From: Anaeromicrobium sp.
GTDB lineage: Bacteria; Bacillota; Clostridia; Peptostreptococcales; Thermotaleaceae
NCBI RefSeq assembly: GCF_025210435.1
Contig: NZ_JAOART010000017.1
Location: 1-35,292 of the forward strand
Direction of reading: 5' to 3'
DNA: 35,292 bases
The position numbers and the translations under genes were made by a program. The notes under the pieces are model-generated. The model ran no database searches. It was not told where the DNA came from and was given only the letters and a program-made list of their open reading frames with translations. This document shows, piece after piece, positions 17,536 to 35,149 of this stretch (positions within the stretch are counted from its first letter, which is position 1; every line of letters starts with the position of its first letter).

Positions 17536-17555
17536 GATTGTGGATAAGTAAAAAA

Positions 17556-17676
17556 ATAAGGCGGTGTGGGGAAGAATTCCCCTGCCCCTTTGAAGGAGGA
17601 TGCTCAGCAACGTTAGTTCCGTTGAAGGGAACCATAGGGTTTCATAGCCAATCGTAGGTCTTACGATTTTTTATTA
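17556..17676 (+). ncRNA. Candidate structured RNA ending in an intrinsic terminator
   Basis: The segment is much richer in G and C than its surroundings. It holds a GGGGAA/TTCCCC hairpin (17567-17582), a CAACG/CGTTG hairpin (17608-17624), a possible closing helix GGC/GCC (17560/17649), and ends in AATCGTA-GGTCT-TACGATT followed by T6. This is the layout of a small RNA or riboswitch, with the aminopeptidase gene about 220 nt downstream. I compared it mentally with TPP, SAM-I, FMN, cobalamin, lysine, guanidine and c-di-GMP patterns and found no convincing match. Alternative: a fragment of a mobile element joined at a deletion point. Confidence 0.5.
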
Positions 17677-17773
17677 TAAAATGAAAATAAGATTTTCTTT
17701 AAATAGATAAGTTACTGTATGGGTAAACCTTTGAGTGTACAAATTTATAATGAATAAAGAAGGAAATTTACAC

Positions 17774-19688: not shown

Positions 19689-19708
19689 TAGTATATAAAA
19701 TATAGTTA

Positions 19709-19783
19709 CCTTCCTAGGCGAGTTACTGGATAAAGAAAGCTTAGTCTTCATAAATCCATATATAGATTTATGAAAGCTAAGCT
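19709..19783. terminator. Hairpin shared by convergent genes, related to the structured repeat
   Basis: AGCTTAG and TTCATAAATC on the left pair with GATTTATGAA and CTAAGCT on the right (17 bp with a 2x2 internal loop). It lies between the aminopeptidase and the convergent XRE gene; the minus-strand side is followed by TTTCTTT. The left part (19709-19771) aligns well with the flank of repeat copy C at 28084-28148 (GTTACTG.ATAAAGAAA.CTTAG), so it looks like a solo module of that element. Confidence 0.65.
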
Positions 19784-21991: not shown

Positions 21992-23380
21992 ATGAGGACT
22001 GAAAGAAGTATTGAAAAGACTATTTTTATGAATATGGTTATAGTTATTATTGTAGGTACTCTAATTTTAGGAGTTACACACGTAATCGTTGAATATTTTC
22101 AATTCATATCAGAGACAAAAACTTTAAGAGAAGAGTATATACAGAAACAAAAGGCCATTATAGAAAAAGAAGTAACTGATGTTATTAATTACATAGAATT
22201 TGAGAAAAGTCAATTAATACAAGATGGTAATTATACAGATGAGAAAAAGACAATTCTTCAAAATAAAATAGCTAAATGGGTTTCTAAAATTTATTATGGA
22301 TATAAAGATGAACAATATATATATATTATAAACTATAAGGGTGTAGAGCTTGCAAATGGTGGATTTCCAGAATTAATAGGTAAAAGTGTTTGGAATCTAG
22401 AGAATGACAAGGGAGATAAGATTGCCCAAAAACAAATAAAACTTGCAAAAGAAAATCCAAAGGGAATCTTTTTTAAAGAAGAATGGATTAAAAAAAGTTC
22501 AAATAAAAAAAGTGAAAAACTATATTATATAAAAGCATTTCCAGAGTGGCAATGGGTAGTTGGAACGGGCATACATACGGACGAAATTGAAGAAATAATA
22601 AATTTGAGAAAAGAATCATTAAAAAATCAGTTTAAAAAAGATATGGCAGTGACATTCATAATGTTTTTATGTATTATTGCTATAATCAAATTTCTAACAA
22701 ATGAAACTGTTAAAAAAATTAATAAAAATATAAAAGTATTCTTTTCATTTTGTGAAAAGGCTTCAAAGGAAAAGGTTTATATTGATATAGAGAAAATAAA
22801 TTATTTAGAATTGAAAGAATTGGCTCTTTCTTTAAATGAAATGATTGAAGGACGGAATAGGGCAGAAAATGAAATTATTAAAGTGAATAATAAATTGAAA
22901 CGACTTAGTATAACAGACGGACTTACGGGTTTGTATAATCATAAATATATGTATGAAATCCTAGAAAAAGAAATTGAAAAATCAAGAGAAAAAAACATAT
23001 CCTTATGTGTTATCATGTATGACATTGATAAGTTTAAAAGGGTTAATGATATTTATGGACATCAGTGTGGAGATATGATTTTAAAAATTGTTGCAGAAAC
23101 TATTAAAAATCATGTGGGACCCAGAGGCGTAGTGGGAAGATACGGAGGAGAAGAATTTCTAGTTATTTTGTTCAAACAAAATTTACAGGAGGCCTATGTC
23201 CTTGGAGAGGAAATCCGAAATAAAATAAAAGAATTAAGTTTTCAATATGAAGAATTAAAAATTACTATTAGCGGTGGAATTGTCCAGTTTAAATCAGAAA
23301 ATCCACAGGAATTAGTAAATAAGGCAGATAATCTTTTATATAAGGCAAAGGAACAGGGCAGAGATAGAATTGAAAAATAA
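21992..23380 (+). CDS. Diguanylate cyclase with extracellular Cache domain
   Basis: This protein of about 462 aa has an N-terminal anchor (about residues 9-31), an extracellular single Cache domain (about 35-200, with the typical YIYIINYKGVELANGG and FPEWQWVVGTGIHTDEI), a second membrane helix (about 215-235), a HAMP-like or coiled linker and a GGDEF domain (about 295-462). The active site is GGEEF at 385-389 with DIDKFKRVND upstream, so cyclic di-GMP synthesis from two GTP is expected. The product-inhibition RxxD motif is missing (GPRGVVGRY instead). ATG 21992 has AGGGTGGG upstream; an ATG nine codons earlier has none. A terminator follows, then the HD-GYP gene. Confidence 0.93.
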   Translation: MRTERSIEKTIFMNMVIVIIVGTLILGVTHVIVEYFQFISETKTLREEYIQKQKAIIEKEVTDVINYIEFEKSQLIQDGNYTDEKKTILQNKIAKWVSKIYYGYKDEQYIYIINYKGVELANGGFPELIGKSVWNLENDKGDKIAQKQIKLAKENPKGIFFKEEWIKKSSNKKSEKLYYIKAFPEWQWVVGTGIHTDEIEEIINLRKESLKNQFKKDMAVTFIMFLCIIAIIKFLTNETVKKINKNIKVFFSFCEKASKEKVYIDIEKINYLELKELALSLNEMIEGRNRAENEIIKVNNKLKRLSITDGLTGLYNHKYMYEILEKEIEKSREKNISLCVIMYDIDKFKRVNDIYGHQCGDMILKIVAETIKNHVGPRGVVGRYGGEEFLVILFKQNLQEAYVLGEEIRNKIKELSFQYEELKITISGGIVQFKSENPQELVNKADNLLYKAKEQGRDRIEK

Positions 23381-27327: not shown

Positions 27328-27819
27328 CTATAGTACTAAATACATGTCATACCATGTGGCTCCGCCGTGTGTAGAGTTTGACAAACCTTCATTTACATAT
27401 CCAAATTTTTCATAGTATTTTATTAAATGTTTTTTACATGTAAGTAATACTTTTTTTCTACCTGATTTTCTTGCATATTCAATAAAATGATTCATTAATT
27501 CCTTACCATAACCGCTACCATGATAATTTGGATGAACATCAAGACCGAAGATTACTATGTTATTTGCACCGGGTATATGTAAATCCATAGTCTTGAAAAA
27601 ATTATCTTTCAGGTTGTTATCATTTGTGATTCCACTATTAATTAATCCTATAATTTCACCATCTAATTCAGCTATAAAAAATCCCTCAGAGAAGATTGCA
27701 ATTCTTTCTTTGAAGACCTTTTTTGAATCCGCTTCAGCTGCTGGAAAACAAAGACATTCTATTTGAGATATATGGTCTAAATCCCTTGGTAGCACATTTC
27801 TTATATTTAATTTACTCAT
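27328..27819 (-). CDS. GNAT-family N-acetyltransferase
   Basis: This 163-aa protein has the full GNAT fold: LNIRNVLPRDLDHISQIE start (motif C/D region), FFIAELDGEIIGLI beta strands, then VIFGLDVHPNYHGSGYGKELM (motif A, acetyl-CoA-binding loop HGSGYGK) and the closing CKKHLIKYYEKFGYVN. It transfers an acetyl group to a small-molecule or protein amine; the acceptor is unknown. The arrangement with a cysteine-containing LTCKK is shared with polyamine/arylalkylamine-type GNATs, a weak hint only. ATG 27819 has GGGGAGGGGG upstream. It stands alone, convergent to recQ. Confidence 0.92.
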   Translation of the reverse strand: MSKLNIRNVLPRDLDHISQIECLCFPAAEADSKKVFKERIAIFSEGFFIAELDGEIIGLINSGITNDNNLKDNFFKTMDLHIPGANNIVIFGLDVHPNYHGSGYGKELMNHFIEYARKSGRKKVLLTCKKHLIKYYEKFGYVNEGLSNSTHGGATWYDMYLVL

Positions 27820-27896
27820 TAAATACTTCCCCCTCCCCTTAGTTATTATAACCTAATTAGTAAATTCAGTGAAAATTTATCATATTAATGTGGATA

Positions 27897-28109
27897 TATA
27901 GATTTCTGGTGTATAAACTTGCTTTATGCGGGCCTATTTCAGGAAAATATATTGAAAATCTTTTCCACCCAAGTCCTTGTCACAAGCGAAGGTGTGAATC
28001 TTCGTATATAGGTTCGTGTGTCATGTTGGAGTAGCATAGGATGTTGTGACGTTCCAGGGTTCCAAAGATTTTCAATATATTTTCCCTTATAGGCAAGTTA
28101 CTGTATAAA
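27897..28109 (+). repeat. Structured intergenic repeat, copy C (complete)
   Basis: Arms at 27942-27963 and 28064-28085 are perfect 22-bp inverted repeats around a core of exactly 100 nt. Outer helices GCCTAT/ATAGGC and AACTTG/CAAGTT extend the fold. Inside the core TCACA/TGTGA (near 27979-27996) and GTCA/TGAC (near 28020-28049) can pair. It is about 95% identical to the reverse complement of copy B. No ORF is present. It forms a tandem pair with copy D. Confidence 0.88.
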
Positions 28110-28138
28110 GAAATCTTAGTGTTGATAAACCTATATAT

Positions 28139-28375
28139 AGAGATTTATCGTTTATAAACTTGAGTTATGTGAGTCTATTTCAGGAAAATATATTTGAATT
28201 TTTATCCATCTCAGTGGCCTGTCACATGCTAAAGTGTAAATTTTAAAGTTAGGTTTACGTGTCATGTTGACTATGCTTAGGATATAGTGACGCTACAGAT
28301 TCCTAAAAATTCAAATATATTTACCTTTATAGACAAGTTACTGCATAAAGAAAACTTAGGGTTGATAAATCTATA
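28139..28375 (+). repeat. Structured intergenic repeat, copy D (complete, diverged)
   Basis: Arms at 28183-28204 and 28304-28325 pair at 21 of 22 positions around a 99-nt core. The arm sequence differs from copy C at several places, yet each change on one side is matched on the other; likewise the outer helix is GTCTAT/ATAGAC here and GCCTAT/ATAGGC in copy C. Core identity to C is much lower than for B, but TGTCACA, GTGTCATGTTG and TAGTGACG-like blocks remain. The spacer shared with C holds a GATAAA..TTTATC hairpin. Bases 28376-28515 contain only the next gene's upstream region. Confidence 0.85.
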
Positions 28376-28515
28376 TGTGAAAAATGGAAAGAATAGATTG
28401 GGCATAGAGCATATCATATGATGGATAAAATATAAGGGTAGAGATGAACAGAAAAAATAACAATGGGTATTGAAATAATTATTACACATGAAGATGAATT
28501 TAAGGAGGGTAGAAC

Positions 28516-33574: not shown

Positions 33575-35149
33575 GTGGATATTATCCTACAGAAAAGAAG
33601 AAAATATATACTTCAAATTATTATTATTGTAATTAGTGCATTCATACTCTTTAATGTATTTTTTTATATGGAAGTTAAAAAGAGTTATGAGAATAGATTT
33701 TATGAAGTTGGGGATAAGATTACTTCTCAAACAACTAATGCTCTAACTCATTGGATTGATCATCAGGTGAGGGTTGTAAAAATGATTTCAAAGGATAAAC
33801 GAGTTATTAATGCCTGTAGATTCCCTGAAAATGAGGGAGTCATCAATGAAGCACAGGAATTTTTACAAGAGGTACATAGCCTATATCCATACTATGAAAA
33901 CTTACCCATAAGTGCAAAATTAGATAAATCAATAATAAGAAGTGTAAATGGGAAAGAAGTAGAAATAAATCATGGAGAATTTTTAGTAGATACGGTAGGA
34001 GGAAAAACCGTTGGAAAAGGTGGTATGAAATATTCATATGTGAGGGAAATATTTAAGGGGAAAGAGTATTTCATAAGTGAAATTTATCCTAGTATATTAA
34101 GGGGAAATCCAATTTTTGTAATTAGTGCACCAATTATATATGATTCAGAAATTATAGGAGTTGCACTCATATCTCCTAAAATTGAATATTTCACAAAGAC
34201 CTTTGTGGACAATGTGAATTTTGAAAATACGGGCTATATGTTTTTTGTTGATGATAGGGGTGTGGCAATAGCCCATCCAAATAGGGAAATGATCTTACGC
34301 AATAACCATAAATTTGAAAATATTGGTGAAAAAATCCTTAATACAAGATCAAACAAAAATAATTATTTTCAAGCAGATTTTATGGGACAGGAAAAATTTT
34401 ATATTAGCACAGAAGTACATATTCCATCAGAAAATATTATGAATAAATGGTATATTGTATTTACCCAGAAAAAAGGTGAGGTTTTACAACATGTTAAAAA
34501 ATATTTTAATATTATTATGGCACTAGTGATTATAGCTACTGTTGTAGTAGTTGGGGCCATATATCTTGTATCAAGTATTAATCAAAAGGAGTTACATAAA
34601 GATCAGTTAGAAAAAATGAATAGATCCTTAGAAAATAAGGTTGAAGAAAGAACCAAGGAACTAATAAAATTAGCAAAAACAGATGGACTAACCCAATTAG
34701 TCAATCATCAAACCGCATATGAAAAGTTAGAAGAAGCAATTTATAACTCAAGGGAAAGGGAAGTACCTTTAGTATTGATTATGGCAGATTTAGATAGGTT
34801 TAAAAGGGTAAACGATACCTATGGCCATCAAGTGGGAGATGAAGTTTTAAAGGATGCTGCTTTTATTATTTCTTCTAATATAGGAGAAGAACATACAGCA
34901 GGAAGGTATGGAGGAGAAGAGTTCATAATTATTTTACCTAATACAGATTTAGATGAAGGGTTAAGAATAGGAAATAGTATTAAAGAGCATATTGCAAGTG
35001 AAAGATTTTCTATTGAAGGATTAAGAGTTACAGTTAGTATGGGAATTCGTCAATGGAATGGAGAATCTTCTACTGATTTAGTTAAATATGCTGATAAGGC
35101 ATTGTATAGGGCAAAGGAAAATGGTAGAAATAGAATAGAAATAGGGTAA
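33575..35149 (+). CDS. Diguanylate cyclase with double-Cache-type sensor
   Basis: This protein of about 524 aa has a first membrane helix (about residues 12-32), a large extracellular Cache region (about 35-305; GYMFFVDDRGVAIAHPNR is the typical strand), a second helix (about 312-335), a coiled coil (about 345-365) and a GGDEF domain (about 365-524). The active site GGEEF is at 446-450 and DLDRFKRVND lies upstream, so it should make cyclic di-GMP. The RxxD inhibition site is absent (GEEHTAGRY). The start is uncertain: the first in-frame GTG (33575) lies inside the only good binding site GGGAGG, so ATT 33581 or ATC 33584 may be used instead, which would be a rare start. Confidence 0.9.
   Translation: MDIILQKRRKYILQIIIIVISAFILFNVFFYMEVKKSYENRFYEVGDKITSQTTNALTHWIDHQVRVVKMISKDKRVINACRFPENEGVINEAQEFLQEVHSLYPYYENLPISAKLDKSIIRSVNGKEVEINHGEFLVDTVGGKTVGKGGMKYSYVREIFKGKEYFISEIYPSILRGNPIFVISAPIIYDSEIIGVALISPKIEYFTKTFVDNVNFENTGYMFFVDDRGVAIAHPNREMILRNNHKFENIGEKILNTRSNKNNYFQADFMGQEKFYISTEVHIPSENIMNKWYIVFTQKKGEVLQHVKKYFNIIMALVIIATVVVVGAIYLVSSINQKELHKDQLEKMNRSLENKVEERTKELIKLAKTDGLTQLVNHQTAYEKLEEAIYNSREREVPLVLIMADLDRFKRVNDTYGHQVGDEVLKDAAFIISSNIGEEHTAGRYGGEEFIIILPNTDLDEGLRIGNSIKEHIASERFSIEGLRVTVSMGIRQWNGESSTDLVKYADKALYRAKENGRNRIEIG

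Follow-up and report, generated by a model that had tools for sequence, protein, structure and literature searches.

In a 35,292-nucleotide stretch of Anaeromicrobium sp. DNA (contig NZ_JAOART010000017.1, positions 1 to 35,292; here called the window), two similar sequences with long inverted arms lie side by side, and they raise the question of whether such a repeat is a structured RNA or a mobile element, and of what keeps its arms matched. A preliminary description, made from the sequence, had offered a likely new structured RNA or a hairpin-type mobile element, and had seen in each copy 22-nt arms around a core of about 100 nt. Copy C does have exact 22-nt arms, at 27942-27963 and 28064-28085, around 100 nt, and the arms of copy D lie at about 28182-28211 and 28297-28326 (+ strand). 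The full unit, though, is longer than that description had it: 239 to 240 bp with outer inverted ends TATAGATTT/AAATCTATA, its borders taken from an alignment of 30 to 33 own-genome copies. Copy C (27897-28135, +; TATAGATTT...CCTATA) is full-length at 239 bp by the copy alignment and scores 158.8 bits with our second covariance model (R2). Copy D (28136-28375, +; 240 bp; 131.6 bits with R2) abuts copy C, is also full-length, and belongs to a diverged subfamily, with 76% identity to copy C over the inner 213 to 215 nt.

Within copy C, on the + strand, helix H1 joins GCCTAT (27932-27937) to ATAGGC (28089-28094); the long arm, made up of helix H2 and a distal part, is an exact inverted repeat with compensatory changes; and helix H4 joins GTCACA (27979-27984) to TGTGAC (28045-28050). 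The matched differences quoted earlier are present in the sequence, namely TTGAAAATC/GATTTTCAA versus TTTGAATTT/AAATTCAAA, and GCCTAT/ATAGGC versus GTCTAT/ATAGAC. Arm matching holds for C and D but fails in copy B, a nearly full-length copy near the contig start (about 58-295, -; outer end approximate), whose two arms read GGAAACGATTG and CAATATATTTTCC. Copy A (about 1-57, -; inner limit approximate) is a left part only, cut by the contig start, with 91% identity over 53 nt and 28.8 bits with R2. Two isolated right-end remnants lie on the + strand, at 17703-17749 (70 to 72% identity to the C and D right ends) and at 19698-19759 (nhmmer 33.8 bits, model positions 177-238). About 70 nt upstream of a right-end remnant there is a match to the sRNA family Clostridiales-2 (RF02937) at window 17552-17632 (+), with a score of 53.8 bits that is below the gathering score of 58.6 (E = 2.9e-12). 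A separate direct repeat, D4 (window 23135-23190 and 34901-34956), reads GRYGGEEF at both sites and so resembles the GGDEF-type motif of two diguanylate-cyclase-like genes.

This bacterium carries well over a hundred copies of the repeat. A search of its genome for the right-end motif gave 218 places, compared to 0 for a reversed-pattern control; a covariance model built on the inner 163 nt scores at least 150 places, and two model listings combined give at least 164 distinct places. For counts made copy by copy, 251 hits were reduced to 152 by overlap and, after duplicate removal, to 69 full and 36 partial copies; where the palindromic element gave hits on both strands, the better-scoring strand was kept for the 69-copy set. 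Arm alleles were counted in 85 own copies, that is, the 69 full copies and 16 long partials.

Outside this genome the repeat is rare. R2 found 83 matches in a sister species of the same genus (G001), 2 in a same-family genome of another genus (G015), and none in the remaining 14 family genomes, so that 3 of 17 are positive with the own genome included. The search of clostridial genomes proposed in the preliminary description was extended to the order with stricter filters and returned the same three genomes out of 394, own included; a first search of relatives had found 3 of 41 positive, again counting the own genome. One exact degenerate pattern run against genome contigs gave a single record, Marinisporobacter sp. 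MAG McD1.33. A G015 copy (L061, G015:C5:1258-1420; 198 bits) is very close to the own-genome family although it lies in another genus of the family, and this closeness suggests that it may have arrived by recent horizontal transfer. A phage or plasmid origin was also considered and rejected, as the 239-bp element had no match in the phage collection or in the plasmid collection.

The mobile identity of the repeat is well supported, and this half of the preliminary proposal stands: the copies are near-identical, their ends are precise, a TA target is duplicated at one nested insertion, and the ends resemble those of IS630-type remnants. Among the 69 full copies, 58 start with TATAGATTT and 53 end with AAATCTATA. 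At the nested insertion (L018), a young copy sits within an older D-type copy and is flanked by the duplicated TA; the flanks without the insert and with one TA align to copy D at 106 of 141 positions, gapless at the junction. Direct repeats flanking the TATA ends of the full copies measure 2 bp in 7 cases and 3 bp in 2, and in none do they reach 4 bp or more. At 10 tandem junctions of the form AAATCTA-TA-TAGATTT the neighboring copies have one TA in common, and 5 further junctions are a shorter form without one TA (own-genome loci, with overlapping loci counted separately). Copies sit almost always between genes, only 1 of the 69 lying inside an ORF of at least 90 aa.

Matches to the transposase domain DDE_3 (PF13358) were found at three places in the own genome, two of them above the cut-off; the match on contig C94 is below it, and that on C107 is interrupted by a stop. 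The fragments at the ends of contigs C114 and C94 adjoin element-like ends, TATAGATTTCGTGGTAAAGACTTTG... and TATAGATTTATTGGTAAAGACTTTG..., whereas in the stretch inspected around the C107 match there were no element-like ends. The C94 end shares 26 of 33 bases with the ends of both L010 and L028, 22 with the left end of copy C and 19 with its right end. Another genome, G009, has three DDE_3 places, and the one inspected (L122) is an IS630-type copy with ends TATAGATAAAC, a form that also occurs in many G001 repeats. The DDE_3 search of the own genome turned up fragments only and no complete IS630-type transposase; a diverged N-terminal transposase query from G009 had no match there; G001 had no DDE_3 match at all; and no full IS630 relative was confirmed in viral contigs. 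Since none is complete in the own genome and none was found by DDE_3 in G001, an active transposase is something that we infer. The likeness of the ends to IS630-type remnants, together with the duplicated TA, means that the repeat is best read as an IS630/Tc1-type MITE. It shares with IS630/Tc1-mariner MITEs its terminal inverted repeats, the TA target duplication, a lack of visible coding capacity, and ends resembling resident IS630-type remnants (19 to 26 of 33 bases relative to C94, whose own match is below the family cut-off).

Orientation relative to replication was determined in 44 own-genome stretches (873.7 kb), with the leading strand assigned from GC skew over ±10 kb and hits shorter than 120 nt left out. 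The stretches were chosen for holding copies, 8 of them for lying on mixed-orientation contigs, a choice that works against a bias. Many own-genome contigs start or stop inside the repeat (e.g., C77, C73, C61, C112, C101, and C124), so the repeat breaks the assembly and orientation at contig edges may be unreliable; the 22 edge copies among 113 (17 leading, 5 lagging) were set aside. Of the 91 others, 86 run with the leading strand. Sorted by gene context, the leading-to-lagging counts are 70:2 between two leading genes and 14:1 between divergent or convergent genes (two-sided binomial p = 0.001), and of the copies between two lagging genes, two follow the fork (L218 and L222) and two follow the genes (both at L195). 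Copies exceed genes in this bias, as 596 of 692 ORFs in the same stretches are on the leading strand (Fisher p = 0.029). Neighbors on a contig agree in orientation in 73 of 81 copy pairs, and on 33 of 41 contigs all copies point the same way. In the sister species G001, 43 of 47 copies run with the leading strand, as judged by skew over ±1.5 kb, a measure that gene direction partly confounds; this count takes the place of one from G001 stretches that had been picked in part for their exceptions. The link to the fork is strong, but the assembly behind it is a draft and the informative mixed sites number 15.

Two places stand out in the orientation maps. At G000:C119, about 4.7 to 8.8 kb (L195), a block of four lagging-strand ORFs holds two gene-aligned repeats, and the whole block may be an inversion. 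At G000:C144, near 59.8 to 60 kb (L179 and L193), GC skew and repeat orientation both flip at or near a copy; the flip may mark an origin or terminus of replication, or a chimera in which the repeat is the joint.

The inner fold is the second property to be explained. By RNA folding relative to dinucleotide shuffles, copy C has a z score of -6.5 and copy D one of -5.7, and 0 of 200 shuffles equaled either. RNAalifold on an unrefined all-subfamily alignment gave one helix only, with the 3' strand of helix H5 misaligned between subfamilies, and we realigned the copies segment by segment. An earlier 53-row set consisted of 52 of 67 matches plus one further place, omitting 8 same-place repeats, 6 opposite-strand matches, and one 44-nt match; a later precursor of 63 rows omitted L073 and took 11 of 27 own copies; and removal of L085 (an N), L099, and L111 (internal deletions) left the 60-copy, segment-wise alignment of 11 own, 47 G001, and 2 G015 copies. 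In an alignment of 43 sequences with 40 pairs, 90.4% of cells are paired, compared to 78.5% after shuffling and 38 to 46% with the partner slid, and 192 cells are changed on both sides, compared to 55.8 in shuffles; the number of pair types in this set is not above shuffles (40 compared to 41.8). H1 and H4 are each 97.3% paired in this alignment, H4 across subfamilies and H1 with double-sided change at 4 of its 6 pairs.

A phylogeny-aware null, in which columns evolved independently on the tree (300 replicates), was applied to the 60 copies from three genomes. Over the 40 pairs, the Watson-Crick fraction is 0.887, compared to 0.588 ± 0.033 in the null (maximum of 300, 0.679), and doubly changed Watson-Crick cells number 277, compared to 47 ± 17 (maximum 123). 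Among individual pairs, 6 of 40 reach E < 0.05 and 11 of 40 have an own-column p < 0.01, with H5 supported at 0 of its 6 pairs. When all 14,706 column pairs were scanned without restriction, the best E was 0.075 and no pair fell below 0.05, although the top ranks are largely structure pairs; what is significant is the tested structure taken together. In the 28 arm positions of the same copies, 1570 of 1668 cells are Watson-Crick, parsimony counts 48 changes from one Watson-Crick pair to another, and several positions show all four pair types (e.g., GC, CG, TA, and AT in H3). Taken together, these results give solid support to a conserved fold, with many more copies than the preliminary description had. 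A known RNA family was looked for and rejected: Rfam gave no match at gathering over the whole window and none at E up to 1 over 27800-28450.

How the matched arms arose is a further question. The preliminary description had taken matched changes to be the mark of selection on a fold; the changes are real, but the premise is too strong, because the same complex alleles are found on both arms and recombined in young copies, which makes arm-to-arm copying likely too. Over the 85 own copies, the central arm allele is matched in 49 and mismatched in 36, where shuffling expects 34.6 ± 2.5 matched, and the distal arm allele is matched in 57 (37.3 ± 4.0 expected). The complex alleles, among them ones with deletion plus substitution (ATATATTG, CTATTG, and CGATTG), occur on either arm, also in mismatched combinations, and suggest that one arm was copied to the other or that copies recombined. 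One could go further and regard the matching as mainly mutational, produced by template switching (quasi-palindrome correction) and inverted-arm conversion with little or no selection on the fold. Apart from the complex alleles, this account would fit H3 mismatches of both kinds (CCC with CAA in 6 of the 85 copies, TTG with GGG in 2), the small number of wobble intermediates, and the TCC/TCC internal loop, which pairs in many G001 copies and is therefore no fixed loop. We nonetheless consider it somewhat unlikely, since copying or template switching alone should have erased other loops that persist beside changing helices: the AAGTC/GTTCC internal loop has retained its sequence, the two sides of which are non-complementary, and 57 of 60 cells are unpaired at the first position of the loop beside H1, although the helices that border these loops change on both sides. 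H4, too, covaries between subfamilies yet is nearly invariant within the young family, having 1 rare variant in 12 positions over the 85 own copies, compared to about 0.6 to 0.9 rare variants per position in other regions of the element. The interior thus holds the least variable part of the element, helix H4. On G001 terminal branches, changes per column are 1.09 in the arm stems and 0.75 in both H4 and the AAGTC loop, and 3.9 in the apical loop, 5.4 in the flanks, 2.7 in H5, and 4.75 in the stretch after H4. Constraint on H4 in single young copies is unexpected for dead insertions. Fold selection and copying between arms probably both contribute, because matching in young copies is imperfect and arm alleles are shared and recombined; H4 and its loop would then be the functional heart of the element, with both processes acting.

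A fold under selection need not act as DNA, and the element could instead encode, or belong to, a functional structured RNA that is spread by mobility. Such an RNA might be a small RNA, or a part of an mRNA that serves in its processing or regulation, and the case would be comparable to the ERIC and NEMIS repeats, with hairpins that affect mRNA. The strong covariation would suit this, as would the unpaired motifs AAGTC, GTTCC, and CATAGGATGTT conserved beside covarying helices, the slower change, in G001, of stems and AAGTC loop relative to the apical loop, and the near-invariance of H4. So would gene direction: 66 of the 69 full copies are flanked on each side by an ORF of at least 90 aa, and 47 of these copies point with both genes and 5 against both. 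The RNA reading is nevertheless rather unlikely in our judgment. Orientation tracks the fork and not the genes in mixed contexts, by the same 14:1, and G.U intermediates are few, helices 1 to 5 of the 43 sequences having 192 cells with a double-sided change and 4 with a single-sided one. The strand preference is also inconsistent. Single-sided arm mismatches in the 60 copies, read on the plus strand, comprise 25 A.C and 8 G.U events (19 and 17 in H4/H5), and the distal arm of own copies has 19 C.A and 2 T.G; H1 shows the opposite trend, with 7 T.G and 2 C.A. Loop mutation spectra are near symmetric, with no mutational bias that would match the A.C excess. That excess first pointed to a minus-strand fold, but other sites conflict with it, as do folding energies, which with RNA parameters favor the plus strand in 49 of 69 own copies and the minus strand in 40 of 51 in the G001/G015 set. 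Transcription might also account for the orientation bias itself, through selection for, or co-orientation with, transcription rather than insertion at the fork. With 596 of 692 ORFs leading, 70 of the 91 copies satisfy both the gene rule and the fork rule, and the two L195 copies in a lagging gene block follow their genes, which are the points in its favor; yet these two copies share a single block that was possibly inverted whole, the mixed contexts go with the leading strand, and L218 and L222, between lagging genes, follow the fork. Purging, moreover, predicts a bias that rises with divergence, whereas the figure for the more diverged G001 copies is not larger than that of the own genome, and own copies ordered by score from low to high show leading-to-lagging counts of 11:1, 27:2, 32:0, and 16:2, with no such rise. 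We therefore regard a transcriptional origin of the bias as unlikely.

The reading that we favor, with a confidence of roughly 0.6, is that the repeat is a MITE of the IS630/Tc1-mariner kind, moved by a transposase acting in trans, inserted with polarity at replication forks, carrying a fold that works at the nucleic-acid level, and shaped by both selection and arm copying. An IS630-type transposase, probably supplied in trans, would excise the element at its ends and would insert it, with fixed polarity, at TA sites at or behind replication forks. For the inner fold we infer a role as nucleic acid: in mobilization or fork passage it would most likely serve as a hairpin of DNA, or as a DNA structure bound by protein, and the main alternative is an RNA role. 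Arm-to-arm copying and recombination between copies would supply matched new arm sequences, and selection would remove master copies with unpaired helices, those in H4 above all.

Elements of the IS200/IS605 and REP type make no target duplication, and their ends are recognized as single-stranded DNA hairpins by a Y1 transposase; membership in that group was considered and rejected, the nested insertion having a TA duplication. A likeness to IS200/IS605 (IS608 and ISDra2), REP/TnpA-REP, and Tn7-TnsE does exist in the fork-related polarity, which passages of one source describe for Tn7-TnsE and IS200/IS605, with similar biases for several IS families (PMC5371812), while passages of another describe recognition of folded subterminal DNA by IS200/IS605 (PMC6006769). 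Unlike these systems, the present element combines a TA target duplication with DDE-type ends. The bacterial IS630 element ISY100 duplicates TA and moves by a cut-and-paste mechanism, and mini-transposons with 30 bp of each of its ends moved as well as the full element (PMC2170065). Two properties set the present repeat apart from the ISY100 type: an inner fold conserved by compensatory changes from subfamily to subfamily, and a strong orientation bias related to the fork. Another dispersed mobile repeat with conserved secondary structure is bcr1 of the Bacillus cereus group, and the likeness is one of description only; bcr1 is tabulated at 167 nt and 31 copies (PMC2267715). Similarly, by their descriptions, ERIC, NEMIS (Correia), and CIR are small hairpin-forming repeats; sections of one article state that ERIC acts on mRNA in an orientation-dependent way and that NEMIS RNA is proposed to be cleaved by RNase III (PMC2229807). 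They differ from our repeat in belonging to other lineages and in that here orientation tracks replication. Our search of open-licence full texts found no report of fork-related polarity for IS630-type MITEs, and none that joins fork polarity with a conserved fold in such an element.

MITEs are usually seen as shrunken transposons whose interior is of little importance. In this family, contrary to that usual view, the least variable part (H4) lies in the interior and shows covariation between subfamilies, and the direction of replication can be read from the copies. A bolder proposal, which we consider quite improbable, is that the fold of a DDE-type (IS630) MITE is recognized as a folded single strand at the fork, so that polarity and hairpin are one mechanism. 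If true, folded-DNA mobility of the IS200/IS605 or attC type would have a convergent counterpart in a transposon class described as cut-and-paste of double-stranded DNA, and a link between fold and polarity would reveal the way in which a DDE transposon is coupled to the fork. Whether or not this holds, the repeat offers more than 100 near-identical natural copies with which to tell hairpin selection from arm-to-arm copying, two processes whose confusion could affect covariation studies of inverted repeats generally.
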